From Saccoglossus kowalevskii (Eukaryota; Hemichordata; Enteropneusta; Harrimaniidae): a stretch of DNA of 47,606 nt. How positions within the stretch are numbered: position 1 is the stretch's first letter; each line of letters starts with the position of its first letter. The position numbers and the translations under genes are program-made. The stretch is from NCBI RefSeq assembly GCF_000003605.2, contig NW_003134358.1, forward strand, positions 1 to 47,606, read 5' to 3'. Below are positions 7,251 to 37,416 of this stretch, in pieces. The notes below the pieces were generated by a model. It saw only the letters and a list, made by a program, of their open reading frames with translations. It ran no database searches and had not been told where the DNA came from.

Positions 7251-9067
7251 GTGAGTGACAATTCTTCTTTGGAACTCACGAAAAAAGAAGCGTTTTCGTA
7301 GTTCATGTAATGTGTTTCGTGGAATATAATAGTAAAAATATTCATTCGCGTTGTTTTGATTTGTAAGCCACCACTTAAGGTAGAATGCTGCTTTCTTAAT
7401 TTTCACATAGTGTGTTTTGTCTGTTTTAGGGCATTTTAATATTTGACCATGGAACAGATATATCTTAATATCTCAAAAATTTCCCAAGTGACATATCATG
7501 GTGATAATAAGATATATAGTTTATTACACGGTATTTTGTTATGTGTAGAAGTAATACAAATTTACAATATTTTTAGTTGGTACAAGTACAATTACATTTT
7601 GGGCCAGTGGTTTGCCGTACTCGAATAAACTAAACTGAACTAAACTAAACTAAAATTAATTGACAGATTTTGACACAAAATATTGCTACTGCCACATGCG
7701 CTAAAATATGCGCACATGTAAAAAAAACAACTCGCGAGTAGCATTCTAACTTAATAAATATATTATTTCAATAACAGCTTGGGAGAACATTTCCATCAAT
7801 TCAGCAAGTTGTGAGCAATGATGAGCATATATGCCATTTACAAATCCAATCCATCACCAACTTTGAGTTCTTTATAATTTACTTAATTTATTTTGTCGCC
7901 GTAACACGTAGATTAGTTTCAGAGTATGATATTAATTGTCAAAACGAAATACTCATCGGGCGTAATTTGTTTTCAAGTGTCTTGATAACTTTCTTGAAAA
8001 TTATAAATATGATTTTCTTGGCATTTGAATATCAGGCAATTATTCATATTTTTTTATATTTATATCCTGCTAGCGTTAATTACTATATCATTTATTTGTG
8101 TATAGTTAATCGTACATGTATTATTATATTCATAATTATCGAATTATTCCCATCCGTACATTGTGTACGTAAGGACAATATAAAAATCAAGCAATAATGT
8201 TCTCGAGCATATTCGTCATACTGTCGCTATAAATGGTTTCCATGGTTAGGGGAACAGTGCAGTGGACGCCATGATGTAGGGTACAACAAGTTGCCTACCT
8301 CTCTCGCCCTCCACAAAATCGCTGCAGCCATTTGCGAATATGATATATCTGTATATTACCTACTGTTTGCTTATAAGGTATCATCGTCTAGAATATGTCT
8401 GGAATATGTTCATTTCGTTTTTTCCTCTGTCATATACTTTACTACATTATGTACGTCTCACTAGTCTGATATTCACGCCCACCAACTTCCGTTTATGAAT
8501 ATTTCTGAGATCAAAAATGTGTTCGTGTGCTTAAAAATTTTAACTTAAAAATGAGAAGCATTTGTTGCAGTGTTATATTTCAAGATCACTGATAAATTCA
8601 CCCTGGGGTTAAAATATATAGTTGATTTCACACAGACGAATCGAGTCGGACGTAACTTTATATTTAGCGATAAAATTCTCATTTTCTTTTTTGGCTTTTC
8701 TTATCTACTCTGTATATAATATGTACTCGGAAATAGCCAACATAGCAGGTCTTCTTTGACCATCCATAAGTTCATATTCTCCATACTATTTTCATAAATG
8801 TGACATGGTGAATTTGTGTTCACGGTAGCTGACACCATTTTTATGCAGTCTTGCAAATACTTGTATTATATCTATTTACAACGTCGTAGTTGTCATGAAG
8901 CCTTTGCATCTCATGTAAATATAAAAAAAATGTAATTTCCGTGCGTTACACACGTTGCATGGGACCCGTATCAAGCACAACCCTTTATTTTGTGTACAAC
9001 ACAGCTTTACACTTTTCCACTGTATAATTAGTTCGAATCTTATCTTATTTATTCACAGGTCGTTAAT

Positions 9068-9299
9068 ATGTCTGCAAATGAAGAGGTGTCTATTGGTGTC
9101 ATTGTTCTGTTGTCAGTCATCGCTTTCTTGGGATTTATCGGCAATATTTTGGTTTGCTACATTATTGCGTTCACACCAAAAATGCGGAATGTGACGTCAC
9201 TTTTTATTGTCAACTTAGCCGTGTGTGACATACTTTACTCAGGACTGAGTATGCCACTCAAATTAATCTCAATGGTTAACAATCAACAGTGGACTCTTG
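9068..9299 (+). CDS. GPCR coding exon 1 (N-terminus, TM1, TM2)
   Basis: The exon itself probably starts at 9059, after TTATTCACAG, leaving nine untranslated bases before the ATG. This ATG is chosen because it is the only in-frame Met before TM1. The exon encodes TM1 (about residues 8-34), the TPKMRN loop and TM2, and stops after WTLG just before the conserved Cys of TM3. It ends in phase 1 at TTG|GTGAGT. It contains a TGACGTCA palindrome at 9192-9199. Confidence 0.88.
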
Positions 9300-12055
9300 G
9301 TGAGTATCAGTTTCTTTGGGTGCCGTTATCGACCTGTGGGGAACATGGTAGTTGTCGGTAATTTTATTAGTCATGTTATTTATCTACTATTATGTTGAGA
9401 TATTGGGATGAATTTGAAATTACGAAAACAAACTGGGGTACACATACTATTTTTTTAATTATGAACAAGCTAACATCAAAGACCATCAAAGTATTCAGAC
9501 ATTTATTCTATGACATTTTGTCGTCATAACCCCAAATCCAAAATTTATTATTTCTTCTCGTTTTCAAATTTAATCCATTGATAACATTGTGAGTGCTCAT
9601 ATCCCGCCTGTGACGTCATGTATTTACATTTTCGTCAACCTGCCTGGGAGAGTGTGATAACAAATCTGATCAACGCAGGCAGCGATCTGCTGCGATGACA
9701 TTGTCCATAAGTTGTTTTGTTAAAAGGAATACATACATGACTATTTAAATATGAAATAACAGAAGCGAAGAACGCCGTTATTTTATTTCGAGTGTGAACG
9801 ACCGGATTTTTGACAGACAGTCAAGTAAACAAAAGCGACGACCTATTATTACATGTTTAATAAATTATTGAGAATGTCTTTAAGCGGTGGGGTTGTAACC
9901 TCCGCGTGAGTTCCTAGCAACAATAACAACGCACGCTGAAAACGCCCCATGATGACGCGCTATGGCCATTTTCCGCATGCGCAGGTGACGACACCCCCGC
10001 TTTAAGCTATATATTTGATATGGCCATATACTGCTGACAAAAACCGCACGTTTATATACGCTTCTAAAAACTGTGAATGTATTTATATCTAGGAAATGCT
10101 GGCTGTAAAATTGTGATGTCATCGCCACTTTGTTGTATTGCCAGTTCCATCTACACCATGATCGTTATTGCTCATGAAAGACGTGTTGTCATTTTGGGAG
10201 GATTGAATAACAACAGCATGACGATGAGACAAGCTAAAATAGCAATTGTAATAATCTGGATTACATCCCTTGCAGTTTCCGCACCTCAGATGTACGAATA
10301 TTCAACGTATGAAAAAATTGTCTTGAACAATCCGTTAGAGCACGTGTCCCAATCTAGTTCTGATGAAACAATGAATAACACCATGTGGGACAATCTAACT
10401 GAGTCTGACGCGGGAGGAGCAGCCAATGAAGAAATACCTGAAAATAAACCACTTATAATTGGTGGTGGGTCGTCAGAAGAAATTATACTACCAGAAAATT
10501 TTACTGATTACCATTTTGAAACATCTTGCGGTTCACATGGCATTCCAGACATGTTTGAAGAAGTTTACTCCATTTGTATATTTGTTATTGGATACCTAAT
10601 TCCACTTATCATTATATCTGTCAACTATATCCTGATTGTGAGGTACATTTGGAAGACGTCACATGCCCTTACCAAAGAAGGTGGAACAAGTGCAGTGTCT
10701 AAGAATAAAGTAAAAATCATTAAGATGATGATGACTGTGGTAGTGGTTTTTGCTGTTTGCTGGGCGCCATTTTTTGCCCTTTTCGTCAGAGAGGTCAGTA
10801 CTGCAAAATAATTTCGGTTCAGCTACCATGTTAGATACCATGTTCCAAAGGGCAGAGACAAAATTTATTTTTAATGTTGTAAATGATGAAGGCAAATCCG
10901 ACGTAATTAGTATCAGTTCAACTCTATATTTGTCTATGTTCCAGAATTATCAAGTAAATTTCGGGATAATTGGATTCGCTTAAAATGTGCTACTGTAATG
11001 GTTTGTTTTCACAAAAATATTNNNNNNNNNNNNNNNNNNNNNNNNNNNNNNNNNNNNNNNNNNNNNNNNNNNNNNNNNNNNNNNNNNNNNNNNNNNNNNN
11101 NNNNNNNNNNNNNNNNNNNNNNNNNNNNNNNNNNNNNNNNNNNNNNNNNNNNNNNNNNNNNNNNNNNNNNNNNNNNNNNNNNNNNNNNNNNNNNNNNNNN
11201 NNNNNNNNNNNNNNNNNNNNNNNNNNNNNNNNNNNNNNNNNNNNNNNNNNNNNNNNNNNNNNNNNNNNNNNNNNNNNNNNNNNNNNNNNNNNNNNNNNNN
11301 NNNNNNNNNNNNNNNNNNNNNNNNNNNNNNNNNNNNNNNNNNNNNNNNNNNNNNNNNNNNNNNNNNNNNNNNNNNNNNNNNNNNNNNNNNNNNNNNNNNN
11401 NNNNNNNNNNNNNNNNNNNNNNNNNNNNNNNNNNNNNNNNNNNNNNNNNNNNNNNNNNNNNNNNNNNNNNNNNNNNNNNNNNNNNNNNNNNNNNNNNNNN
11501 NNNNNNNNNNNNNNNNNNNNNNNNNNNNNNNNNNNNNNNNNNNNNNNNNNNNNNNNNNNNNNNNNNNNNNNNNNNNNNNNATTATCCCGAAATAGTTCCA
11601 ATTGTGTTAGTATTCAAAAATTAACACATTATACTAAATACAGTACGTTGACATTACACCATATTTAAATAATGTGTCTTTATTGAATTATGAATTGGCC
11701 TTGGAGGTTGCATTTAATCTGGTATCTAATTCATTTCATGAGCTCAATATTCTATATAATATTCTATATACGACATGATTTTAAAATCCAATTCTTATTT
11801 TTTCTTATATCTTTTCTCCAGGAGGTTTTGGGCCAGGATAATAGTGGTGATTCCGGATCCGTTTTTCATTCTATAAAGCTAACATTCGCTGCGCTGAGTA
11901 CAATCTCCAACCCCATTATATACGCCATGTTCAATAAAACATTCCGTGAAGGTTATCGGAGAATATTTCATTGTAAACTGGGCAGAGCAAACAGAGTAGA
12001 AACTACCGGAGAGGGAGCATCAATAACATTATCAGCACAAGGGTCTACGTCATAG
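9068..12055 (+). CDS. Rhodopsin-type (class A) G-protein-coupled receptor, peptide-receptor-like, three coding exons
   Basis: Coding exons are 9068-9299, 10093-10793 and 11822-12055, giving 388 residues. Borders are TTG|GTGAGT, ATCTAG|GA, GAG|GTCAGT and CTCCAG|GAG; phases match (1, then 0). Seven membrane segments are visible. Class A landmarks by residue: GN at 25-26 (TM1), NLAVCD ending at Asp54 (TM2), Cys82 before TM3, Glu106-Arg107-Arg108 in place of DRY, Cys300-Trp-Ala-Pro303 (TM6), and Asn341-Pro-Ile-Ile-Tyr345 (TM7). The second extracellular loop is unusually long, acidic and Asn-rich, with several N-glycosylation sequons. The C-tail is short with a possible palmitoylated Cys. By family it should signal through G proteins at the plasma membrane. 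The CWAP and KxKxIKMM motifs favour a neuropeptide-type receptor, but the ligand cannot be read from sequence. The N-terminus before TM1 is only about seven residues. Confidence 0.9.
9611..9618. promoter_or_regulatory. Consensus CRE palindrome in receptor intron 1
   Basis: TGACGTCA, the full cyclic-AMP response element bound by CREB/ATF-type bZIP factors. It lies in intron 1, where an enhancer or alternative promoter would be possible. Function is inferred only from the 8-base match. Confidence 0.3.
9880..10005. mobile_element. TTAA-flanked miniature inverted-repeat element in GPCR intron 1 (family A)
   Basis: About 126 bp bounded by TTAA at both ends. The left end reads TTAAGCGGTGGGGTTGTAACC and the right end CAGGTGACGACACCCCCGC then TTTAA. 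The two ends form imperfect terminal inverted repeats. The interior matches the reverse complement of 13967-14122, for example AACAATAACAACGCACGC and CTATGGCCAT. It has no coding capacity. The TTAA borders suggest mobilisation by a piggyBac-type transposase, which is an inference from the target-site pattern. Its right end lies under 90 bases upstream of the exon 2 acceptor. Confidence 0.75.
10093..10793 (+). CDS. GPCR coding exon 2 (TM3 to TM6)
   Basis: It opens with the phase-1 continuation of Gly78, then Asn-Ala-Gly-Cys82, the Cys expected to bridge to loop 2. TM3 ends in His-Glu-Arg-Arg. TM4 is the AIVIIWITSLAVSAP segment. The second extracellular loop runs some 90 residues with NNT, NLT and NFT sequons and a Cys in ETSCGSHG as the probable bridge partner. 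TM5, a basic third cytoplasmic loop and TM6 with CWAPFF follow. The donor is GAG|GTCAGT in phase 0. Confidence 0.9.
11022..11580. other. Assembly gap (run of N)
   Basis: 559 undetermined bases inside the second coding-region intron of the receptor. The exons on either side join in frame and give a normal-length third extracellular loop, so a missing coding exon is not required. An alternative exon in the gap cannot be excluded. Confidence 0.99.
11822..12055 (+). CDS. GPCR coding exon 3 (TM7 and C-tail)
   Basis: It starts after a pyrimidine-rich acceptor (TTTTCTCCAG, ending at 11821). A second AG three bases on could drop one Glu by alternative acceptor use. The exon encodes the end of loop 3, TM7 with SNPIIY, the amphipathic helix 8 (NKTFREGYRRIF) with a following Cys, and a short Thr/Ser-rich tail ending at TAG. 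Confidence 0.88.
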   Translation, partial: EVLGQDNSGDSGSVFHSIKLTFAALSTISNPIIYAMFNKTFREGYRRIFHCKLGRANRVETTGEGASITLSAQGSTS

Positions 12056-14122: not shown

Positions 14123-15209
14123 CATAACCTCATTTTATCGCACAGCCAGTTTGACACATTTTGACAAAATTATTGAAATATATGCTTTGCGTGATCACTT
14201 GAAGATTATATAGTTACACACTTTTGTCGAGTCAGACAATACATAAATTAAGTAAAGCAAAACATTTGTTTAACAATACTGCAATATTAAGAGAGTTGTG
14301 TTCTTATTGTTTAAACCTTCTTAAGATATTTGACATTCTTTTAAATAGTTAACTTCATATTATCCAAGAAGGGCAGAAGAAATATCTTGAAGGAAATATT
14401 TTTATAAATTTCCATAACGATATGACATTCATATACTATAAATAATAAGGTAATGAACATTAAACTGATGGATTTCAAGCAATGTATTGATATGAGGCAC
14501 ACATTTGTATACATATATTGTTTATAAGTGGATTGACTTATCTCTTGTGTACTATTAAATCAAAAACCTTATAAAGCAAGGCATGATGTGTGTGTTGTAT
14601 TATCCTTTATAATATTCTTAAAGCAATGAAATAAAAGTATGTCACATACAAATAAAACAATGAGTAAGTGTTCACAATATATCTAGCATAATGTTATTTA
14701 GATTAGTTTAGTTGAAAAATAAATAAGCGTGTATGCTGTATTGGCTAAAATAAATTAAAAGGCAGTACATACTCTCAGTGCTGTAGTGACATGTTATGAC
14801 ACGGCCGCGCGTTTTTTTTGAAAACGTTCAAATATGAGACGCTTTCAACCTACTCTTCATAAATAGGTGGGGTATGACACGTCTCCATCTGACCAATGTG
14901 TTTTTCATATCGCCCATTTGACCATACTCATTGTAGCATTGGCACGTCACATGTAACCTCGGAGAAAAATGTGTTTGAGCAAGGGACGAAGCTTATTCGA
15001 CAAAACGGCCAGTCATTTTCGAACAAAATAACAATCGTTCTCACATTGTGGTGTTTTCCAGCCATCCGACAACAAATTGTTGACATTTATTTCATTGTAT
15101 TATCTATAAAATTAAAATATCTCAAAATGTTGACCACAGCAACATTAAGAAAGCTACATCATTGCCCATAATTGTAACCTTGGCTCCCATGAACATCACC
15201 AAAGTTACA
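14123..15209. other. Non-coding AT-rich stretch
   Basis: No coding frame, RNA gene or clear repeat is supported here. Confidence 0.5.
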
Positions 15210-15342
15210 TTAAAGCGCGGTGGTCGTCGCGCAGCGCGTGTTCGAATTTCATGTAAATAAACAATGTATTTTACACGCGTTGTATACGTCGTTATGAGTT
15301 CCATATCGAGCAGGACGCGGCGCGACGACTGCCGCCCTTTAA
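15210..15342. mobile_element. TTAA-flanked miniature inverted-repeat element (family B, copy 1)
   Basis: 133 bp with TTAA at each end. The left end is TTAAAGCGCGGTGGTCGTCG and the right end CGACGACTGCCGCCCTTTAA, which are imperfect inverted repeats. The interior (TTTCATGTAAATAAACAATG, ACACGCGTTG) matches 18493-18624 in reverse orientation. Family B shares its terminal type TTAAAGNGNGG followed by GTCGTC with family A, so both may use one transposase. No frame is present. Confidence 0.8.
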
Positions 15343-15615
15343 TACTGTCTACATTCTGGTCCAGCGTACGGTTAAAAGTTGAAATAACAGGTTCGATCAA
15401 GAAATGTTTTCAACATGTCAATGAAATAGTTGATTTATGTCTGTATTTCACGGACATTTTTCAAAAATGTGCGAGTGCTCTTCTACTGCACAATTAAGAC
15501 AACTTTATTTGATGTTCGCCTCGCCACTATGGCTGCCATTAAAACACTTTAGAGGGTACGCGGTTTGAACGAAAATGGAATTCTGTGTGTTCTGTTCTCT
15601 GTTCATAGATTCCAA

Positions 15616-18184: not shown

Positions 18185-18492
18185 CTGTATATAATACAAA
18201 ATGAGTAAACAACTTTAAAATATAACGATACTCAGAATTAAAAGTAGCGTAATTTTCTTTATTATTCCATATTTGGCAAGTCATTTAAAAAAGATGAAGA
18301 CAATTAATTGCAGATAAAGATCCATCGTATTAATTATTTAGAGAGAATGAATCCATGTACAAAAAGAAATCAAATCCAGCAACATATTTCGGGCATTGTT
18401 TTTTAATATGGCAAGAATTTGTCAAACATCTTAAAATTGTGCACGCCAACAAAAGATGAAATGATGTATAATAACAAATAACGTTTAAATAA

Positions 18493-18624
18493 TTAAAGGT
18501 CGGTGGTCGTCACGCCGTTTCCTTTTTGTCACGAGTCTCATAGCGACGTACACAACGCGTGTAAAAACATTGTTTATTTACATGAAATTGGAACACGCGC
18601 TGCGCGACGACCACCGCCCTTTAA
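18493..18624. mobile_element. TTAA-flanked miniature inverted-repeat element (family B, copy 2)
   Basis: 132 bp with TTAA at both ends: TTAAAGGTCGGTGGTCGTCA on the left and GCGACGACCACCGCCCTTTAA on the right. It lies in the opposite orientation to copy 1 at 15210-15342 and matches it along its length. It has no coding capacity. Confidence 0.8.
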
Positions 18625-19116
18625 TGCCGCGGCGTGTTTCATTATGGTATACGCATGATATATAATGTTACGTTCAAGTTGAAATTGTATAGATAATAAT
18701 TACCAAATGTTCGCGAACCAAAATGGATAGTATGAGCTAAAAAAATTCCAGACAGATTTTGCGCTAACTAATGCAGTTTTGTTCACAAAAGCGCACCGCG
18801 ATATTGAGATTTTAGTTGCATCATGGTGTTGTACGGTAAAACATACTTAACATGATTTATCAGTAGTACAGTGTACTACGATTAAAAACACTTTTCTAAG
18901 ATAATTTGTTCAACCAATGTGGAGGCAATTTCCTGTCGTGGTCGAAGAGCACAAAGTGATCATAGCAATTTGGATTGTAACGAGTTCTGAAAGCTCGATC
19001 GGAAATACATCAAACTAGTCATTTATACCAATCGCCGTGCCGTGCATGTATGTATGTCGAGACTCGCAACACATAGTAAGCTTCAATGTAATGTCGGGAA
19101 TTAATATATTGCTCAC

Positions 19117-22248: not shown

Positions 22249-22751
22249 CTGCTCATCGTCCCTCGCGGCGAAGTTGCGACAATTATAGGGGGTCTGGGAA
22301 TGCCCCCTTACAAATTTTGAAATCTAGACCCTTTGAAACGATATTTCCTGCATTTTGAGAGGCAAATTATACTGACACAAAGGAGGGACGCATTTTTTTC
22401 GACCCTCGGCGCCACCGCCGCCACTGTTAGGTCACTTTACGAGTAGGGGGGTGATTGTCTCTAAAACGATATTACGATAAGACTTAGTCGTCTTTATATG
22501 TTCAAAATCAAAAGACTTAGTTGTCTTTAAATGTTCAAAATCAAAATTACAGGTATTGCGACTTTACAGGTTAGTGAAGGTCGTGTTCTACATCGGTTCC
22601 ATGCAAAGTCCACCAGGCCTGCATAATATATTGTTTGTTTACGGGAAATTCAAACACGCACTGCACGATGTGACATGTAACTACATATTGTGGACATGTT
22701 TTAGCCTTTGACCTTTGTGATTTATATGTTTTGATATTCATGTATACATAC

Positions 22752-25364: not shown

Positions 25365-25379
25365 CTATTGGGGATATCC

Positions 25380-25441: not shown

Positions 25442-25576
25442 CTGTAATCGGGTCAGTTTCCTCAAGAAGCCTTCTCAAATTTGCAGCCTCTGAAGATGTA
25501 TCCAGCATATCCATATATTTTTGCTTTTCTTGCTCCTTGCCAAGTTCTCTATACAACCGAATAAGGAGATACACCC
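25442..25576 (-). CDS. DED/NB-ARC/TPR gene exon 10 (TPR)
   Basis: 135 bases, phase 1/1, residues 927-971. Acceptor TTCCTGTAG|GG; donor ACAG|GTAAGA. It encodes a helical pair (VYLLIRLYRELGKEQEKQKY) with the small/large residue pattern of a TPR, then an acidic end (LLEETDPIT). The donor implies a further exon; the best candidate I see is 17993-18184. Read-through would instead add 25 residues and stop at 25365. Confidence 0.75.
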
Positions 25577-26412
25577 CTACAGGAAGGAAGAATCATATAT
25601 ACAATTAAACATCTAACTGTGACATAGATTCATCGCCACGTGAATGGTATAACTATCTAAATAACATAATTAGTGTTTTACCCGCAGCCCAACTTTTATG
25701 CTTTTTGTATTCTGGTAAAATACGTGTCTTCATTGCTAGACCATCTTTTAGCAACACTTCAGCTTCACCGTACTTAGACGGATCGTGTTGTATCAGATAA
25801 AATCTTCCTAAGTCAGTCATACCTTAAATATAATATAAACATGCATGACGTATAAATCATACTTATTGTAAAGAAGGAATTAAAAAACAAACAAACAAAT
25901 AAATAAATGAATAATAATCACTTACCAACTGAAATGCTAATATGGTCACCTCCTTCAGGCCAATTCCAACATTCTTTTTTCCATTCCAATGACTTCTTCA
26001 ATAATTTTTCAACCTCATCATGGTCCTTCAATTTCATTTGAAGATAAAGAACACCCAATTCATGCATAGCTGGAATAGAATTATGTATTACTCTTTGACC
26101 AAAAAGATCCTGTTCTTTGACAATTAACATACCCATCAATCAATCAGATAGATGTTAAAAATTTGAATATCATCAATATTTCTGGTTAGGTGCATGCCAT
26201 AGTATTCTACTCCCATTATGGGCATGTCCAAGTTCATGAGTCTTATGCACTTAAAAAAGTTACCTACGTACTGTGAAATACTTTATTTTAGCTGGAATTA
26301 ATTTTCGATTAGTTGAATGTGAAATATAGGGAAAAAAGATTTTATTTTTGTTGAATCATCCTTTTAGCAAAAATATCGAAAGTCAATTTCAAGCAGAAAT
26401 AAAGTATTTTAC

Positions 26413-26488
<76 letters not shown>

Positions 26489-29400
26489 GTAATAATAGTA
26501 ATAATAATAATAGGTTTCGCATTATTTTATTAAGACAAATATTAAAAATATGTTAATCAAAAAGTTATATGCCTCGTAACCAATATACGTTGTAACCCAC
26601 CTATTGCTGTCTGTGATCCATATGGTTTTCCTGTTGTTTTCTGGAAATGGTTTACTGAAATATCAATACACCTGTTGAGGTTTTCTTCAATATACCGTGT
26701 ACTAATCTCTTCTATAGGTTTAGGCTCTTGGCGGTGAAAGTAGAAATTCATATCTGCATTAGCTAAGGCATATTTGACTGTGAAGAAAAGAACTTCTGTT
26801 GTTGCTAGTTTCGGGAAGCATTACTAATGATTAATTTAACCAATTGCTGATTTATACAATCTAGCAGTCACTAGAAAACTGATAGGTATTTTTCTGGATA
26901 TCAATAAAATCTAACACAGTAAACAAAATGTATTACCCCTGGCAATTTCAATATCACTGTCCTGCTCTTCCAATGGGCATGAGTTGAGATAACACTGTTC
27001 AGCTCTTCTCAAACTCTTAACAGTTTCTTCTCTTCGGCCATCTTCTAATAATGCTCCAGCCAGATAAAAATGTGCTGAAAGAGAAATTCGGAAATCATTT
27101 ATACAAATTAACAAATATAGAATATTTAAAAATTCGTTTCTTTAAAATGTATAAGATTTAAATTATATGATCGATTTCACAAATACCTAAAATTGATGAC
27201 TTACCAAGACCTAGCCGTCTTTCACATTGCAGATCATCGTCACTTGTTTTGATTTTCTCTGAGGCTGTTACTGCAATTTCATGTAGAAGAACAGCTTCTA
27301 TAGGTCTTCGCTTGAATCGTCTGAAATACAAACCAACAGCATGGAGCAAAGGAACTGGATCTTTCAAATGAATTTCACCAGAATCACACAAGAACTGTTT
27401 CAAAAATCGAGTTAACAGCACTACGTGTAATGTCACTTCTTCTTCTAAGTCTGACAATGGAACATGTTTACCGGTGGATCGTCTGAATATTCTTTCTTCA
27501 GTTGGAAAAAGTTTAGTGAAAAGAATGATTGCATTATTTATCACGCCCTGTATCTTTTTGTCACCTGTTCTTTTCATCTCCAGTTTAACCATGTCTTGGA
27601 CGATATGATGAATGGTAATTCGGTGTGTGGTATTGCCTTGGTGTTGGCTTGAGTCAACTAATGAATATCGTCTAAGGCACTTTAAGATGTTGGTGATGTT
27701 TCTTTCAATTCTTGATGTTTTGTTTTCACTTCCAGAAAGTTTGTGGAGTAAGCCTTCTTTTAGCGGCCCGTCTTCCAAGTAACAAGCACCACGTAGGAAC
27801 ACATCTTTTGATATTGCTGGGGCCAGGAGTGCACATAACTGAAGAAATTCCATTGCTGCTGCACCCAGAGCACTTTCTTTAATTTGGCGGAAAGTGAGAG
27901 CCCAAGTTGTGACGACGCTTCTTCTTTCCAGCATCCATTTTTCAATATCAATATCACTTCTTCTAGCTTCTTTAAATTTAAGCACATCATCTGGTGTCAT
28001 CTTCACATCTTTTGACAGATCTTCGCTGTTTAATTCTAGAAAGGCAGCTAGAGAACCCAGAACCCTACGATGTAGTGCGTCATAATATCTTTCCAAGCCA
28101 TGAGATTTCAACCACGGCTTGAGAGGATCGTCGCATTTTTTGGGATAGAATAGATCATCATCAAAAAAAGTCTGGTAGAATCCTTTGTATTGAGAAAAGT
28201 TCACGGCATTTACCCTCATAAACTGTATAGCTGCGATCAAGGCTAAGGGCAGACCGTCAATACCATCAGGGCCAGCTAGCCACATCAATGCATAATAATT
28301 ATCTGGTTCTGCTTTCTCTAAATAGTGCAATTTATTCTTAGCTTCTTCAATACTAATCGGTCGTCCCCACTGATCCCTGAAGCATCCTCTTACTAGTAGG
28401 AGTGTTGCCAGGTCTTGTGCTAGAGGCTTGATAAAATAATGTGCTATTTATGACTCGTACCGTGATTGAAGTTTGGTGTCTCGCGAAGTGATGATCACAT
28501 GTCCACCTGATGGAAAGTTTGGGAAGTAACTATGTATGACCTCTGCATCGTCGGCATTATCTAGTACCAGCAGCCAATCAGATTTTTCTTCAAGCCATTC
28601 GGTAATTTTTGTACAGACGTGAATTGCACTAAAATCCGTGTCATTGTCTCCCAATTTAAGTTTCTGAAACTATACAAGAATAAAAATGTATATCACAAAT
28701 TATTTAAAATTACTGTAACATGCATTGACCATTTGTTACACTGACGATCGTCAATCGCTGTGTTTTTAAATAATTGATTTTAACTGGTATTACCATTCTA
28801 TTGAATCCATAATCTATGACACTGGAAGAACCCGTGGGAATCCACATCACACCTCCAGTGTAAGAATCATAATATTGTTGCACATACTGTATGACTGTCT
28901 CTGTTTTTCCACATCCAGGTAATCCATTCAAAATCTGAGGAACGTATAAAACAGGAATGAGTATAGTACCAAGAAAGATATAAATTCTGGTATTGTATTA
29001 ATAAACTGATATTTCACACTTATTTGTCCAGGTGTTGTGAAGTAAAGTTTGTTACTATTCACGGTCAGCGACATATTTGTAATTTGCCTAATCGAAAGAA
29101 ATTACAATAGCCTATCTCTGTGTAATTTATCGTTATCACTAAATACCCGGACATACCAACTTATGTGCTATGTGCATCTTTTCAGCTCCGCTGTTGACTT
29201 TGTCGAGTGGAGCTTATCATATGAGTGATTAACCGCCATCATCCGTCGTCCGTGTCAATATTTTACTTTTTCGACTTCTTCTTGAAAACTACAAGCCTGA
29301 ATGCCTGGTAGACCTCTCTCGGATATGTTCATTTTGTGATGATATCTTTAATTCTATAATTTTGGTGAATAATTTTGTCATTTTTGCTAAAAAGTAATAT

Positions 29401-32400
29401 TTTCGACTTCTTGTTGAAAACCGCAAGTCCAATTGCTTAGATAGTATACATATAGGTACTACATGTGGACCTCTTTCAGATTTGTTAATTTTGTGGTGAT
29501 ATCTTTAATTATCTAATTTTGATGAATATTTTTGTCATTTTTGGTGAAAAGTGATATTTTTGAATTCTTGTTGAAAACAGCAAGTCTGATTGCTTTGATA
29601 CTATACATATTTTTCATTTTCTGGTGATATCTTCTGTTCTTTAATTGAAATGCGCATTGCTTACAGCGGGGCTATCTCAGCCGACAGGCTGCTTGTCTAA
29701 GTATAAATCCCGCATATTTTATTTTAAATAATAAATAATAAAACAATTGATGCTGTTACAGTCGACAATGTTAAAGACCTTGAACATGTTCGTGTTTTTA
29801 AATTCACGTCTTACACATGGGTAGTCATGTATCAAAGACTGATTACTTGTGTCTGTTCCTAAACATTTTTACGACAATTTCACACAATTAAAGGATTTGT
29901 TTATATTTATTTTATAATATATCAACGATTTCAATATCACATTTAGATAATATTGGGTTTATACACGTACCTGTACAAAACTCTTCCTCTGCAGTGGATT
30001 ATTCGTATTCGGATCAGGTCGGTTCTCCATGTACTCATCATGGATCTTCTTGAGTGTGTTGTTTTGTTCAACAAACATTGAATTTGGGTTTCGCATGTTC
30101 TCTAGCATAACTGTGAACAACGCATTGTGAAAAAAATCAGGCAATTAGTTTTGCAGTCAAAGAATTATGATTGCAGTTGACAAAATAGAAAAAAATAACA
30201 CACGTGAAAAATTGATATTATTACTGCATTCACCTTTTGACATTTTGAAAGGCACGTTGTAGCTCGTTGGGAAAGTTGGTTCGGAGATACGGCGAGTTCT
30301 CCTAGAGACCGAGTGCTGGCCTTCTCTAACATTGTGAGTCGGTGATTCACTTTGATCAATCGCTTGCTGCGGTTTTGGTATATTACGGCCTACATTGTAC
30401 CACAATTCGTACTCGCTAATTGTCTTTGCCAAATCATCTCGTTTAAGGTCGTTGACCAAATACTTCAAGAAATTTACATTATCTTCTTTTATTAGACCAG
30501 CAGAACGCAATGTTTCGAAAAACCTTTGTCTATGGTTAGTTCTTTGAACCAGAGATGAACATTTGCCAGTAATAACCCAGAACTCGGTGTCAGTTAAATT
30601 GTCTGATATGTGGTCGATGAGCCCTGAATAACGTTGTGCAATGGGACTTGACGATCCTGCAGTTCAAAGCAAACGAATACAGTGAAACATTAGTTGTATA
30701 TTGAGCGACTCATTTATTACCGAAATAATTACACACTGTGGTATGGTTAACACGTTTGTAATGAGCCTAAATGATGGAGTGGAAACAGTCACTTGAGATC
30801 ATATGTACACATGGAATAAACACAAATACAAACTTTGCACTACACAACTTATGTATGAGTCCATTTCGTTAGCTTAGTATATAGTTATTTTTATGGGTTA
30901 CTGGACCAATCACATGCCGCTCTTAAAAAAGTGAGGAAATCAGACAATTGAAATATACATCTCCAACACGAACACGAGTATGTACATAATTCCGATATCC
31001 AGTAATTGCTGTCAGATTGGATGGGAAGCAATCAGTAAAATGACAGCGGGGATGAAAATAATCATATTGTTGCTATGTATATCAGTGACAATTTGGCGTT
31101 AATGCTTTCTAAACTATAGACAGTCACATTGAAGCAAAACAAATTACCGTGCTCACGTTTCTGTGTCCACATATACTGAATATTGTTAGTATCACGGGGA
31201 AATCTTCTCCTCTGGGTTCTCCACACGTGTCAGGGGGGAATATCGTCTCGTCTCTCTATCGCGTCCCTTTGAGGTACGGGATCGGGAACGTCACTTAAAC
31301 TTTACAGTCAAATAGACGCACACAACAAAATACGTTTCAACTCTCGTCTTTAGTCGGTCAGTCGAGCACTCTATAAGACACAGCGCCCTGGGGAAAAGTC
31401 CCCAAGACTATCGCAAGGCTGACCCACGACTACCCCCAAGACTAGACCCAAGACTGCGTCAAGACTGCGTCTGTCGTGGTGTACTCTCCAAGACCAACTA
31501 AAACAACTTTATTCATTTTCAAAACCTTAACCAATTACAAAGTAGTATAAAGACTCTAAGGCGTGGCCTTCACACATTCAACCAATCACACTAAGTACTG
31601 AACACGTCATATCTTTTGATTAATCGTTCACTATATTAGTAACTGCAAATACCAACTGTCAGAAAGAGTAGTCCGAATAGCGACGGTTATATTGTAATTA
31701 GTTCCAAATCACTGAGTCGAATTCCGTCCAGGACCTCGCATGAGCCTAAACGATGACAGACATAACACAGCCATTCGCTAGTAATCAGCTAAATAAGTCA
31801 ATCAACAGATACGTGCAAACAAATTCATCACATTAGCATTGTCCGATAAAAGGTCGAGCTGATACATTGGTTCAGCGCATTACTGTACAAGGTACATAGA
31901 TCACTGTGTGCTGCGAGTTGTCACAACAAACTACTTTAACTTTGGGCTGTTTTTGTTTGTCTAGACATTATTGAGATAAGGTGGCAATGAACAAACACAG
32001 TTCGTACACTGCAGTATATGTCTTATGTCTGAACTATAGTATGTTATTAAACCTCAATTAGTACACAATTCTCAAAGGAAAGTTAAAATGAGCGTAATAT
32101 ATTTCAGCAATGTACTATTGTTAACTGCCACAGAGTGTGACTAAAAAGTTATTCAACACCGGCACTCCTGCTACTGACTAGAACGACATCTCAAAATCAT
32201 GCCTTTTGACTTGTAAAAAAGCGAGATTACAAGTAATAGTACAATATTACGTAACACCCCTGCAGTGGGGAGTATACACACAATCAATCACTGTAATGAC
32301 GTCATGTTTACTGCGTGTAATCAAACATTAAAGGGCGTGGTCGTCACACAGAGAATTTCATATAAAAAATGTATTGTACACGTGTTGTGCACGTCGCTAT

Positions 32401-32793
32401 TAGTCCCAATTGAAACAGAACCTTTTAAGCTGCGCTCTGACTTGGTCAGCTGTTAAACCACTGAGAAAATTTGATCACATGCCCCGTCATAATCATCCTT
32501 AGTAATCTCGCCGTTTAATCGCAGACATCTTCCTTAACTCCCATCAGTAATACCGATATCCTGTTATTTTAACACAAGCATTCCAATCTGTCCAAATAAC
32601 TACCTTCTGAACTTGTATTCAGTTCAGCATTTTAAACCTTCGAACATATGACATCCACTAGGACGTCGCGATTGTTACATTGTATTTATATACAAACTGA
32701 AATAACTATTTTACAATATTCTAAAGTTATGGACTGGGATATTTGTTCACAACTATAACGTATGTAGTATTACCCACCTGTCTGCTCAGCCAT
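25442..32793 (-). CDS. DED/NB-ARC/TPR protein (STAND-type cell-death or immune switch), ten exons, interrupted by one in-frame stop
   Basis: Exons from the 5' end: 32793-32778, 30656-30234, 30110-29971, 28934-28794, 28663-27205, 27074-26937, 26777-26601, 26069-25926, 25822-25682, 25576-25442. All phases agree, giving about 971 codons before an unplaced C-terminus. Domains: death effector domain (residues 12-88, RDDL at 78-81), linker, NB-ARC with P-loop GLPGCGKT (197-204), Walker B LLVLDNADD (271-279), ITSRD (298-302) and GLPLAL (377-382), winged-helix motif IHHIVQDMVK (about 591-600), then TPRs. By family these cytosolic ATPases oligomerise on a trigger and recruit partners through the DED. 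A TAA at 28448-28450 (codon 312) would cut the product to 311 residues. This may be a nonsense allele, a young pseudogene or a sequence error. Confidence 0.85.
25682..25822 (-). CDS. DED/NB-ARC/TPR gene exon 9 (TPR)
   Basis: 141 bases, phase 1/1, residues 880-926. Acceptor TATTTAAG|GT; donor GCGG|GTAAAA. It encodes MTDLGRFYLIQHD, then YGEAEVLLKDGLAMKTRILP, a clear TPR-like helix pair with the family's Leu-Gly and Ala-Glu positions. Confidence 0.8.
25926..26069 (-). CDS. DED/NB-ARC/TPR gene exon 8 (TPR)
   Basis: 144 bases, phase 1/1, residues 832-879. Acceptor CTATTCCAG|CT; donor GTTG|GTAAGT. It encodes MHELGVLYLQMKLKDHDEVE followed by KLLKKSLEWKKECW, a well-formed TPR. Confidence 0.82.
26413..26512 (+). 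repeat. (TAA)n microsatellite in the intron between TPR exons 7 and 8
   Basis: About 100 bases of nearly pure TAA/ATA triplets, with a few TAG-containing interruptions toward the right. It lies 344 bases upstream (in gene orientation) of exon 8. Length is likely polymorphic. It makes a spurious poly-Ile frame on the plus strand. Confidence 0.95.
26601..26777 (-). CDS. DED/NB-ARC/TPR gene exon 7 (TPR region)
   Basis: 177 bases, phase 1/1, residues 773-831. Acceptor TTCTTCACAG|TC; donor ATAG|GTGGGT. It encodes KYALANADMNFYFHR, then IEENLNRCIDISVNHFQKTT. It is longer than its neighbours by an insert between the two helices. Confidence 0.78.
26937..27074 (-). CDS. DED/NB-ARC/TPR gene exon 6 (TPR)
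   Basis: 138 bases, phase 1/1, residues 727-772. Acceptor TCTCTTTCAG|CA; donor AGGG|GTAATA. It encodes HFYLAGALLEDGRREETVKS followed by LRRAEQCYLNSCPLEEQDS. The A-GALLEDGRREET core is typical of the TPR turn. Confidence 0.82.
27205..28663 (-). CDS. DED/NB-ARC/TPR gene exon 5 (NB-ARC to first helical repeat), carries the in-frame TAA
   Basis: The large central exon of 1459 bases, residues 241-726. The acceptor is probably TATAGTTTCAG|AAA; the AG six bases earlier would add Phe-Gln in the same frame. Order: Walker B WLLVLDNADD, ITSRD, the TAA at 28448-28450, a conserved continuation in the same frame (HYFIKPLAQDLATLLL), GLPLAL, a long helical region, winged-helix IHHIVQDMVK, and a C-terminal helical part ending RLGLG. 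The donor is CTTG|GTAAGT, phase 1. No GT-AG pair around the stop preserves the frame, so it is not an overlooked intron. Confidence 0.85.
28448..28450 (-). other. In-frame TAA inside the NB-ARC domain
   Basis: The codons read CGG TAC GAG TCA TAA ATA GCA CAT. The same frame is open for 71 codons before and about 415 codons after, and conserved NB-ARC motifs lie on both sides. One substitution would restore an amino acid. The truncated product would keep the DED, P-loop and Walker B but lose the regulatory half and all TPRs. Confidence 0.9.
28794..28934 (-). CDS. DED/NB-ARC/TPR gene exon 4 (P-loop)
   Basis: 141 bases, phase 0/0, residues 194-240. Acceptor CGTTCCTCAG|ATT; donor AATG|GTAATA. It encodes ILNGLPGCGKTETVIQYVQQ, a Walker A motif with its following helix, then the GGVMWIPTG strand typical of NB-ARC. 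Confidence 0.88.
29265..29645. repeat. Three diverged tandem units in intron 3 of the DED/NB-ARC/TPR gene
   Basis: Units at about 29265-29394, 29395-29549 and 29550-29645 share TCGACTTCTTNTTGAAAAC, GCAAGTC or ACAAGCC, GTGATATCTTTAATT and TTTTGTCATTTTTG. Flanking sequence (TCGAGTGGAGCTTATCATAT on the left and CAGCGGGGCTATCTCAGCC on the right) looks like the ends of a larger dispersed element spanning roughly 29180-29700. No coding frame. Confidence 0.65.
29971..30110 (-). CDS. DED/NB-ARC/TPR gene exon 3 (linker)
   Basis: 140 bases, phase 1 in and 0 out, residues 147-193. Acceptor TTGTTCACAG|TT; donor TACAG|GTACGT. It encodes the polar linker between DED and NB-ARC, with a short amphipathic helix (NNTLKKIHDEYME) and an Asn/Pro-rich part before the first NB-ARC strand. 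Confidence 0.78.
30234..30656 (-). CDS. DED/NB-ARC/TPR gene exon 2 (death effector domain)
   Basis: 423 bases, phase 1/1. Acceptor TGAACTGCAG|GATC; donor AAAAG|GTGAAT. Residues 12-88 form a DED: a first helix (YSGLIDHISDNL), RQRFFETLRSAGLI with the family's L-x-x-x-G-L pattern, DNVNFLKYLVNDL, and the diagnostic RxDL motif as RDDL. The rest is a Ser/Arg/Pro-rich tail (SVSRRTRRISEP) of disordered type. DEDs bind other DEDs, for example in caspase-8/FADD-type complexes; the partner here is unknown. Confidence 0.85.
31180..31500. other. Intron 1 of the DED/NB-ARC/TPR gene: CAAGACT-rich segment
   Basis: A GC-richer stretch with repeated CAAGACT and ACTGCGTC words (31405-31490) that looks like a degenerate short tandem repeat or repeat fragment. 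No coding frame. Confidence 0.35.
32328..32429. mobile_element. Degenerate family B miniature element in intron 1 of the DED/NB-ARC/TPR gene
   Basis: It begins TTAAAGGGCGTGGTCGTCAC and carries the family B interior (AATTTCAT, ATGTATTGTACACGTGTTGT, CACGTCGCTAT). The right end is decayed to CCTTTTAA. It is a truncated or mutated relative of 15210-15342 and 18493-18624. Confidence 0.6.
32778..32793 (-). CDS. DED/NB-ARC/TPR gene exon 1 (start codon)
   Basis: The ATG with context CCGTCATGG, then Ala-Glu-Gln-Thr, ends in phase 1 at ACAG|GTGGGT. It fits exon 2 exactly (G|GA makes Gly6) and puts the DED at the extreme N-terminus as expected. Upstream AGs and in-frame sequence offer no better start. 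Confidence 0.65.
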
Positions 32794-32942
32794 GACGGTA
32801 TAGGCTCTCCTAGGTTGTCTGGTGAAATAAAATAACGTGCGTGGGTGCTGTATGTCACACTGGTCTCAGCCTTGCATACTAATGGGGTCCTATGTTTTGC
32901 ATAACATGGACCAAATACCGTTCATTGAACCTACTTTTTAAA

Positions 32943-32950
32943 TGACGTCA
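32943..32950. promoter_or_regulatory. Consensus CRE palindrome 150 bases upstream of the DED/NB-ARC/TPR start codon
   Basis: TGACGTCA at a promoter-like distance from the ATG at 32793. CREB/ATF-type factors bind this site. No TATA box is evident at a fixed distance. The regulatory role is an inference. Confidence 0.35.
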
Positions 32951-33364
32951 CTGCGCCATGTACATCAAGATTGTAGTTTTGACACACATAAGCGTACAAT
33001 CAAACGCATTAATATTAGTAGAGAGTCAGTTGTGAAATTTAGGGCATGGCATGCTATAGATTTTGTTATTTTCAATTGAAAGTAAGCAGAAATACTCAAG
33101 TGTGGCGTATGAAAAATAAATATTTGTGTCAGGGGATCGATTGGCCCTGGAGCCTGTCGTTGTTAGAGTGGGCGTTATTTACATTCGGTCGCTGGATGTC
33201 CACTCAAACACTAGCATGGACTCTGATATAACAAAACGGAATAGACGCGTAAGACAGAATACATAATATGCGCATGCGTACATCAGCACTTCGATTGCCC
33301 GTATGTATTCGACAATTTAAGCAATTTCGAGGAGCAATGAGCTAAAAAATATACTTTAGTTCAT

Positions 33365-33640
33365 TTATTTGATTTCACAAATATCTAAAAATAATATCAT
33401 ACCAGAGCCTAGTTGCATTTCATATATTGTCATTATATTGTCGCATATGCTGTAATCTATTTATGAAACTTGTGAAATGATCAAATGTAAAGAATTTATC
33501 TTTAAAATTTAGATGGTTATGAATCTAATTCCATAGAAAATATTAATATTATAAACACATAGGGAATTATTTTGACATTTTGGAAAGGCGCACTGCTACA
33601 ATTGCTGGAAAGGTGGGTTCGGAGGATTATATCACAGGGA
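33365..33640 (-). pseudogene. Decayed fragments of exon 5 end and exon 2 end of a DED/NB-ARC/TPR paralogue
   Basis: 33361-33425 aligns with 27165-27235, the 3' end of exon 5 plus its intron: GATTTCACAAATAYCTAAAA, then ACCARRGCCTAG. 33568-33630 aligns with 30233-30300, the 3' end of exon 2: TTTTGACATTTTG, AAAGGC, then GGTTCGGAG. Both are on the minus strand, with indels that destroy the frame. The loss of everything between exon 2 and the end of exon 5 points to a large internal deletion in a former tandem copy. Confidence 0.65.
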
Positions 33641-33999
33641 GCCCAGGAACTATAATCAACTGTAGTACGCAGTCTCTATGAGCGAATGGGGGGTGGGGGT
33701 ATCGGCTGGTATCTAGTGTAACAAATAGACAAGGGATGAAGGCTCCAGCAAGCTCACATTTTTTAAACTCGAAAAAACATACGAAAAGAATGAAAAATAA
33801 AATCTAAAAAAAATACCAGGTTGAAGAATATTAGTTGCTCCTTCAAAATTCGTCAAAGCCTTACCTACATTTTACCGATATCTGCAGAATAAATCAAGAA
33901 AACTACACAAAATTACTCCATTTAGGAATTCCTAACGGTTTGTACAAACTGAGACGTTTCCAATCTTTAATTAGGTAATTTTCATGTTATTCGAAGGTT

Positions 34000-34153
34000 T
34001 TAAGGAGTCACCAGCGGTAATCAGTGCAAGTCGCGCCCAGGTCAAGCTTCATACTTGTGATTTCCATTTGAAAAGCGCATTGGATTGTGGGAAAATCAAT
34101 TTTTATCAACACAAATGTCGAACATGCGCAGCGCGACGACTACCGCGCTTTAA
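34000..34153. mobile_element. TTAA-bounded miniature element (family C, copy 1)
   Basis: The right end CGCAGCGCGACGACTACCGCG then CTTTAA is of the family B type. The interior (GCGCCCAGGTCAAG, TTGTGATTTCCATT, AGCGCATTGGATTRTGGG) is shared with 36030-36135. The left end near 34000 is disturbed by a small insertion. No coding capacity. Confidence 0.6.
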
Positions 34154-34280
34154 GTACTTCATTGTAACCGTCAATATCGTGGTTGCAGGTAATTTGCAAA
34201 GTAAACCACTGTGTCTTATCTCTGTTAGTAAAACATACTTAGCATACCAGTATAATCAGTGCAGGTTGATAACACCTGTG

Positions 34281-34293
34281 AGGTCAAAGGTCA
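34281..34293 (+). promoter_or_regulatory. Perfect DR1 nuclear-receptor half-site pair
   Basis: AGGTCAAAGGTCA is two AGGTCA half-sites separated by one base, the pattern bound by RXR heterodimers and HNF4-type receptors. Nearby genes are not known targets. A 13-base match alone is weak evidence. Confidence 0.25.
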
Positions 34294-35479
34294 AGCTGAG
34301 GTTATCAGATCGACCATTGTGCTGTTTTACATACGCACATGTGCACTGCGAAGAATAAATCACACGTCGCCTCACTCGACTGCATTTTGTTCAAACGAAA
34401 AAGTATCTGCGCAAAAACATGTACAGCTATAGTTGCTTCAATGTAATCTTGATGTCCTTAATAATTGTGAGTTGCGCCGCAATGGTGCACAGAGTGGATA
34501 TGCCTGACTGTACTCCAAACGGTAGCTGTTGAATGACGCAATTTCAGTAGAGTAGTCCAAGCGACTGACTTCTTCAAAATAGGTCAATTTGCTTGCTGGT
34601 CATTTGTCTACGCATTGACATGTCTAGACATTTGTAAGTCATTGAACAGGAAATGAACACTGTGTAATAAACAACTTACTATATATGTATCATGCCTACA
34701 GGTAGTTTTAAGAACGCAGACTCCGTTCTATAGTTTTGAAACTTTGACAAGTTAATATTCAAACATTGCCTTTCGGAAAGTAGCGCAATTATTCATCACC
34801 ATGTCTAGTTCTATTTTGTTGACACTGGAGCAAATTATATGCACAAACGACAACAGACGTTTTTCGAAAAAGTTGTGCTGTGTGTTTTGTGCCGTACAAT
34901 GAATTGTTAAAAAATATTCTCGCGCAAGTCACTCATCGCTAAAGACATCGTGAAATGTCTGGAAATAATCTTACGAAATACTATATAGTGACTTCCTACT
35001 ATTTCAATGTCATTGCAATTTTTACATAATTTTTGTATTGACAATTACACCCACGTTTGGCGTTCAATAATTATTAAATGTATGTGTCTGTATTTATACC
35101 GATAAAGCCATAAGATATTAGCGCCTGGATTGTGTAATGAAAGGTCAAGTCCTGCTTATGAACTGTTCATTGAGCTGTTTACACACATACACAAATCCGA
35201 GTCAGTGCATACTACGTAGGATAAATCACACGTCGCCTAACTCGATCGCATTTTGCTTACAAGAACACGTATCTCCAATGATATCGTTGGATTTGCTCGA
35301 ATTGTGAGTGGGACACCTGTTTGGTCTCTTGAACCTATAGGAGGACTGGTGCCATAACTGAGTGACTCTTACAGTAATTGACATTTGATGTCCTGCTTTT
35401 TTATGGCCACATGCCTACCAGACGGAAGAACAATCTGAGACGTAAACATGGGTAACGCATCATTAGCATTATCTAGCAC

Positions 35480-35775
35480 CACTCAGATTTTCACCCAGGC
35501 TATTTGGCTATTTGCACTGAAATCTGCTGTTTCTTATCTTTCATGTGAAGTTTCTGAAACGAGAGAAAGGTTTCCATAAAATGTTACAAATCATTATAAG
35601 TCGCCTGTCGATGCACAATGTTTTAGCAATGCTGCATTTCAATAGTCAATGTTTATTCTAATATTTGATTGAATCCATATTCTCACTTACACAAGAAAAA
35701 CGTGTTCGTATCCAAATCACACCCCAGTATAGAGGACATAGTATGCATCTACTTACTGTATAAATGCTGAAGGAA
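35480..35775 (-). pseudogene. Decayed fragments of exon 4 and exon 5 start of a DED/NB-ARC/TPR paralogue
   Basis: 35464-35570 aligns with 28553-28680: GCATTATCTAG then ACCA, CAGATTTT, CACTRAAATC, and AAGTTTCTGAAAC at the exon 5 acceptor. 35655-35770 aligns with 28790-28895: TGATTGAATCCATA, ATCCAMATCACACC, then TACTGTATRA. Order and strand match the intact gene. Gaps and substitutions remove the P-loop and Walker B coding frame, so this is a relic. Confidence 0.7.
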
Positions 35776-35989
35776 ATAGCTGCAAAAATAATGCCGATTA
35801 GAAGGATTCACCATTTCGATCGATTATTGGAACAGGACTGACTGAAGTGGGAAGTGGGAGAATTAAGCTTCTTCAGTAGCGCGTGTGTTAGTTGACGAGC
35901 TATTGTTTCCACGTCGTGCATTTGTAGAAGTTTGGTGGCCACTCGAAATTGACAAATACTCAGAAAATTACCTTTATACCTTTATAGTA

Positions 35990-36345
35990 TGTTTACATAG
36001 AGTTCAAACGCGCGCTACATGACTACTCTTTAAAGGGCGGTAGTCGTTGCGCCCAGGTCAAAACTCGTACTTGTGATTTCCATTAGAAGAGCGCATTGGA
36101 TTATGGGAAAATCAATGTTTATCGCCACCCTTTAACGTAGTGACCGTCGGTCATTATATTGCCAGGAACATGCATCCAAAAAGATAATTGGAAATAAATA
36201 TATGTCAGCTTGGGATAAAAACAAAACATGCAGTGTGATATGGGTCCAACGCGACGCATACAGCGCGTGTAAAAAAACATTGAATGCTTGTACAGACGAA
36301 GTTTGAATGCGCGCACGCGCTACACGGCGACTATGGCGCTTCAAG
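35990..36345. mobile_element. Cluster of TTAA-type miniature elements (families B and C)
   Basis: Three pieces lie end to end: a right-end remnant (35990-36033, AAACGCGCGCTACATGACTAC to TTAA); a short family C copy at 36030-36135 (TTAAAGGGCGGTAGTCGTTG to CACCCTTTAA); and a degenerate family B-like piece at about 36245-36345 (AACGCGACGCATACAGCGCG to GGCGACTATGGCGC). The first two share or abut one TTAA, which suggests insertion at an existing element end. Confidence 0.6.
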
Positions 36346-37416
36346 AGTGTGTGGTTTGAGAGAGAATGACCAAAAGAGTCGTTGAGACAGGCACGTAGCG
36401 ATAGATCCAAATAATTAATTTCTACTCCGGAGGTTCAAGAAGTTACAAATAATTTATTGCAATAAAATTATTGCATAATAATATAATAATTGCGTATATA
36501 GTTCAACAGTGATGTTGAAACGTTGTTATTGTTAACAGTTAATAGACAGGGAGAAATCGTCTTTTTTTCCTGTAAAAAGATTACACATTCAGTGGTGAGA
36601 GAAATACGCAATTCATGTGTGTCGCGCCCTCTAGCGACACAGTGCTTCAGGAATTGTAGTACATGTACATGCAACATGGGGCTCTTAGTACAATGTAGCT
36701 CAAAACAACCACTGCGTTTGTTTGTTTATTTATATGGTGCTCGTCATTTACAACATAGCTGTTCTCCTAAAAACTTTTTTGTTGTTGACAGACGACTACA
36801 TACTCTTCCTGTCACTCATTTCGCTAGAGAGCGCGACTTATATGAAAGGAGATCCAGGCGTCCATATTCACCCGTGTCGTTATAATTTAAAGCGAGATTA
36901 AGCGTTGAGGGCGCTAATACCTGCATTAGACATTGCCAGGTTCAAACTGTGAATGATAGCATAATATATGACTACAATAAAGCAATATTTTATAATTGAT
37001 TTGTGTTATGGATATATGAGTAAAAAACAAATTATAAATTAAGAAAATAAGAATAGCTGTCAATCTCATAAGTATGTTGCACAATACAATATCGTCCTGC
37101 GATGCTAGTATGTTTCCAATGACGTCACTATGCGTTCAATTTGATCGAGTGTTGTACATTCCACGCTGTAGTGAATATGTGAATATTACTTGGTCTTCAT
37201 TCCGCCCTCACAGTGACGGGAACTCCTATTAATAATCGTACCAGTCCGTGACAACGTGCATATTGTAGAGTCTTGTGGTTAAACGGTGAAATCCAATACA
37301 GACATTTTTTTCACTATATATTTTGTATTATGAAATGTTTAAGAATTACATTTTGATTGTCTCAAAATAAGTGTGTGATGAATTATTATAACAGCGCCAC
37401 CAGCGTCGGGATCTGA
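36346..37416. other. Non-coding stretch
   Basis: No convincing gene. A plus-strand frame of 120 codons at 36523-36885 has no homology I recognise and no good splice sites. A TGACGTCA palindrome lies at 37120-37127. Confidence 0.4.

Follow-up and report, generated by a model that had tools for sequence, protein, structure and literature searches.

Previous studies on metazoan NB-ARC proteins have described several arrangements related to the one analysed here. Zmasek et al. 2007 describe Nematostella homologs with death effector domains (DED), and TPRs that occasionally replace WD40 (PMC2246300). DED-NACHT combinations have been reported from amphioxus, sea urchin, and Nematostella (PMC2575513), 39 NB-ARC genes without LRRs have been predicted in Trichoplax sp. 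H2 (PMC6321704), and copy-number variation has been reported for zebrafish NLRs (PMC11192531).

The gene described in this work resembles the metazoan CED-4/Apaf-1-like NB-ARC proteins in its N-terminal DED, its middle NB-ARC, and a weak, putative C-terminal TPR, while it is unlike them in having a premature stop and a weak SAM-like segment after the GLPLAL motif. With the nonsense nulls and young pseudogenes of the NLR family it shares a single stop, an otherwise intact frame, and dead copies nearby; on the other hand, at least three exon-5 loci have been found here with one protein query. FLIP-like DED-only inhibitors are encoded by short, complete genes that have ends of their own. The truncated product of our gene would likewise keep the DED, but most of the large receptor frame remains downstream of the stop. 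Overall, the sequence argues for a nonsense null allele of recent origin, which may still be segregating or may just have become fixed; we consider this the probable explanation. A single premature stop in an intact gene is an ordinary event, and no new mechanism is indicated.

Gene structure and position of the stop

The window, i.e., the whole stretch of DNA analysed (47,606 bases), corresponds to bases 1-47606 of a contig of 278,768 bases (C2609) in an assembly of 572 Mb and 4,830 contigs. The gene was rebuilt by eye and with a script from the genomic sequence. It has ten exons on the minus strand (32793..25442), with GT/AG boundaries and phases that join throughout. Exon 1 (32778..32793) holds the ATG start and ends at a phase 0 donor, gtgggt. 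Exon 2 (30234..30656) encodes the DED and exon 3 (29971..30110) a linker, and exon 4 (28794..28934) carries the motif GLPGCGKT, which we take to be the P-loop. Exon 5 (27205..28663) comprises the remaining NB-ARC and a following helical region, and it contains the premature stop. The TPR-like region lies in exon 8 (25926..26069), preceded by exons 6 (26937..27074) and 7 (26601..26777) and followed by exons 9 (25682..25822) and 10 (25442..25576, up to the donor). The C-terminus has two candidate ends, since exon 10 may be spliced at its donor (25441) or may continue as far as a TAG (25365-25367). The intron before the P-loop exon contains a 157-base direct repeat in nearly two copies with 86% identity (29311-29610).

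The original prediction had described an in-frame TAA in exon 5, with 71 codons before it and about 415 after it, a truncated product of 311 residues, and intact splice sites and phases in all ten exons. Our reconstruction agrees with it in all these points. The TAA, read directly in the sequence, lies at 28448-28450 on the minus strand and is codon 312 in the frame of exon 5. It is preceded in this exon by 71 sense codons (28663-28451) and followed by 414 up to the splice donor, and the stop-to-stop frame downstream of it amounts to 429 aa. In the rebuilt model it is the sole stop in 971 codons, counted to the last donor, so that the product is predicted to be 311 residues long. Downstream of it there are 1,978 coding bases, with no second stop and no frame break, and five splice junctions. 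The frame of the gene is intact apart from this one disabling lesion.

Domain composition of the predicted protein

The full predicted frame, with an X placed at the stop, was scanned with Pfam. NB-ARC matches residues 194-349 (profile positions 22-184) at 30.7 bits (E 2.5e-7; gathering cut-off 23.5). This places codon 312 inside the domain, as had been claimed. The exon-5 piece upstream of the stop alone scores 19.7 bits, under the cut-off. The profile alignment is continuous through position 312, so no large insertion or deletion is needed at the stop, and we reject an indel or missing segment there. In exon 5, LLVLDNADD, IITSRD, and GLPLAL presumably represent NB-ARC motifs, and by this assignment the TAA occupies the place of a predicted loop residue after the IITSRD segment of the nucleotide-binding domain.

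The DED is borderline. It scores 30.9 bits at residues 18-89 in the full-frame search (E 3e-7), 34.2 bits in another Pfam scan (E 3e-8), both under the cut-off of 35.9, and 35.7 bits in the genome search, or 36.1 with its frame neighbours. TPR_12 matches weakly at residues 823-863 (19.8 bits, E 9e-4, cut-off 30.1), and DUF7779 also gives a weak match in the full frame. Taken together, the predicted domains are best explained by a metazoan NLR/Apaf-1-like protein with a DED, an NB-ARC, and a TPR-like C-terminus.

In addition, a weak SAM_1 match (20.2 bits, cut-off 23) is seen at residues 424-463 (window ~27995-28114), downstream of the GLPLAL motif and ahead of the helical region that follows it. 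This stretch can be aligned in both of the relatives described below, yet only one of the three members gives a Pfam SAM match; possibly, a SAM module has been inserted into this NB-ARC subfamily. Structure prediction for the part after the stop reached a mean pLDDT of 37.5 alone and 40.5 with two relatives, both too poor for a fold search. Searches against the sequences of solved structures yielded no match up to E 10 for the part of exon 5 behind the stop, two weak matches for the DED exon, including FADD at E 0.9, and three weak ones for a three-sequence profile, two of them SARM1 SAM chains at E 1.5.

Relatives in the assembly

The 411 bases around the TAA have a single 100% match in the assembly (1 candidate), hence there is no alternative haplotig for comparison. 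With the protein after the stop as the one query, three places have been found (4 candidates), namely the gene itself and two relatives on contig C9, and this number of exon-5 loci is a lower bound. The two relatives, at 132482-133654 and 110817-111977, are 30% identical to it in that search, and 29 and 27% in another comparison. Exons 4-5 and some TPR exons of the relatives were examined. In both, the exon-5 counterpart is open, with no stop and with sense codons in the loop, although the relatives are distant and the loop column is approximate, its alignment being uncertain by a residue or two. Both also have the P-loop in a separate exon ahead of the exon-5 counterpart, like the window gene.

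Upstream of the relative at C9:110817 there is a death-domain-like exon (L006:5043-5384, minus strand; 19.4 bits, cut-off 22.6), which suggests that the N-terminal death-fold domain may have been exchanged among relatives. Profile searches of the genome gave 67 DED and 7 NB-ARC matches; the NB-ARC search, made in six frames, missed the window gene and both C9 relatives, so that the latter count understates the family size.

Timing of the presumed loss

To what extent the part behind the stop has decayed can be judged from its identity to the relatives, although with two distant relatives such a test is coarse. Over exons 4-5, the window gene and the two relatives share 45/117 and 33/117 residues before the stop, and 109/380 and 113/381 after it, while the relatives share 58/118 and 157/395 with each other. 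Thus the identity changes by -9.8 and +1.5 points across the stop, compared with -9.5 points in the control pair; one comparison falls marginally more than the control (9.8 vs 9.5 points). Residues unique to the window gene number 30 before the stop, against 6 and 17 unique to the relatives, and 79 after it, against 40 and 36. That is, relative to the relatives' own unique residues, they are not commoner after the stop than before. From zero further stops, the neutral divergence since the loss is bounded at ~0.026 substitutions per site (stops alone, kappa of 4 assumed).

By these comparisons there is, on average, no excess decay downstream of the stop. As the downstream identity is not reduced on average, translation probably extended through the downstream half until a short time ago, and the data point one way, to a full-frame constraint that lasted until recently or still lasts. 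A single young lesion is therefore favoured over a programmed truncation of long standing. Of the possibilities listed in the original prediction, a fresh lesion, a segregating null allele, and a sequence error all fit the sequence, whereas the programmed truncation finds no support.

If the animal itself carries this base, a full-length product with DED, NB-ARC, and TPR-like parts would have been made until recently, and one nonsense change in the loop of the nucleotide-binding domain would have made the sequenced haplotype null. In the population, this null allele could still be segregating or could recently have gone to fixation. With five splice junctions past a stop, nonsense-mediated decay is the default expectation, and thus the mRNA of the null allele is likely to be lost in this way. 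Any residual protein of 311 residues would comprise the DED together with a nucleotide-binding fold that is incomplete, and would probably be unable to close or oligomerise normally. An allele that is both true and segregating would provide a naturally occurring knockout with which the function of DED-NB-ARC-TPR-like proteins could be tested. For annotation, caution is advisable, because this one base may make automated models skip exon 5 or split the gene in two.

Decayed copies at the locus

Decayed pieces of the gene lie on its own strand (minus), ~5-7 kb upstream of the stop. A relic of exon 4 is found at 35663..35766 (blastn 8e-7; score 81 vs a maximum of 34 in 30 shuffles) and one of the initial part of exon 5 at 35363..35553 (blastn 4e-6; score 104 vs 37 in 30 shuffles), the latter with 133/185 aligned bases identical and several gaps. 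The end of exon 2 has a likely relic at 33570..33624 (blastn E 0.016; score 49 vs 40 in 30 shuffles). A further relic at 33343..33440 covers the last part of exon 5 and runs into intron 5 (score 65 vs a maximum of 44 in 200 shuffles), and 0/200 other places in the window score as well. Exons 3, 6, and 7 and three post-stop pieces of exon 5 were sought in 32900-37400, with scores within those of shuffles. There is one copy of 35300-35800 in the assembly.

With exon 4 and the start of exon 5 followed by the ends of exons 2 and 5, the order of the relics points to two partial copies. The relics mean that copies of the gene have died here before, which indicates turnover at the locus. The homology of the exon-5 relic ends at the base matching 28451, immediately before the TAA; this is taken as chance, and we offer no explanation for it.

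Base error and the background of in-frame stops

The main rival to the null allele is a sequencing or consensus error, with the animal carrying a sense codon and the gene being intact, which we regard as possible but rather unlikely. A lone isolated lesion in an intact gene is what such an error would leave. By arithmetic, assumed per-base error rates of 1e-6, 1e-5, and 1e-4 would put a false stop into 0.01%, 0.1%, and 1.2% of comparable genes, respectively, and over a whole gene set some to many genes would have one. On the other hand, the TAA lies in a run of three A and outside any long homopolymer, and the 2.9 kb coding sequence has no further stop or frame break.

As a control, kinase domains were searched, with at least 143 matches (133/493 candidates scored), from which the 20 single-frame matches of at least 504 bases were kept (4,894 codons). 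One of these 20 longest matches also has an in-frame stop, located near the domain end and possibly at an exon end. The 123 short exon matches were dropped since they can run into introns; 42/123 list a stop by hand count. Among the genome matches, 3/67 DED and 1/7 NB-ARC matches have in-frame stops, and the NB-ARC match concerned is a short exon match that has two of them. One of the three DED matches (L012, G000:C129:196055-196324) is a good one of 57.9 bits with a single in-frame TAG inside it; its contig holds several DED matches. Hence the window gene is not the only one in this assembly with an in-frame stop in an otherwise conserved frame, and such background counts would be expected from null alleles, young pseudogenes, and base errors taken together. 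Our literature search on stop-gain and heterozygosity in invertebrate assemblies found no paper.

Bypass and programmed truncation

It is very unlikely that the stop is bypassed by an exon-internal intron, by readthrough, or by editing. The original prediction had held that the stop could not be removed in frame by any GT-AG pair around it. Actually, 297 in-frame pairs of at least 40 nt within exon 5 do so, though the best is no better than chance, as an equal or better pair occurs in 130/300 codon-shuffled exons. Its donor at 28460 scores 1.9 (model donors 0.5-7.4) and its acceptor at 27320 scores 3.0 (model acceptors 0.3-8.2), by splice weights that are approximate rather than fitted, and its use would cost the NB-ARC core 1,140 nt. 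A tiny intron at the stop, running from donor 28460 to an AG 17 bases further on, is rejected because of its insufficient length and because it would shift the frame. With an A as the next base, TAA is a tight, non-leaky stop context, and removal of TAA by A-to-I editing needs two edits.

Even less credible is a programmed truncation, in which a 311-residue DED plus P-loop protein serves as a dominant regulator, akin to the DED-only inhibitors. This product would be precisely bounded, with the DED and what we take to be Walker A, Walker B, and sensor 1-like segments upstream of the stop, and a truncated regulator would be compatible with a young allele. However, a gene that had long ended at codon 312 would let its downstream part decay, while here that part is open over its whole length, keeps five junctions, and on average resembles the relatives, in relative terms, at least as closely as the upstream part does; this disfavours a long-standing truncation. 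Nor is the stop conserved, as both genomic relatives read through the loop. That a stop allele is maintained beside an intact one, with a stable 311-residue product damping the full receptor or a DED-caspase assembly, is similarly far-fetched on the present sequence, and if true it would be a naturally occurring dominant-negative polymorphism of an invertebrate NLR. Re-initiation at an internal site downstream of the stop is rejected as the source of a functional product, which would lack the P-loop.

Other features of the window

Scans of the window with Rfam (at gathering scores) and for tRNAs gave no match. A short interspersed repeat family occurs in both orientations at 15208-15343, 18492-18626, 22617-22668, 32325-32408, and 34092-34153, with its members 74-85% alike, and 34030-34107 and 36046-36123 form a repeat pair of 88%. 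The plus strand at 9032-12055 carries a rhodopsin-like receptor gene with several exons, as judged by eye, which contains a 559-base N gap (11022-11580).
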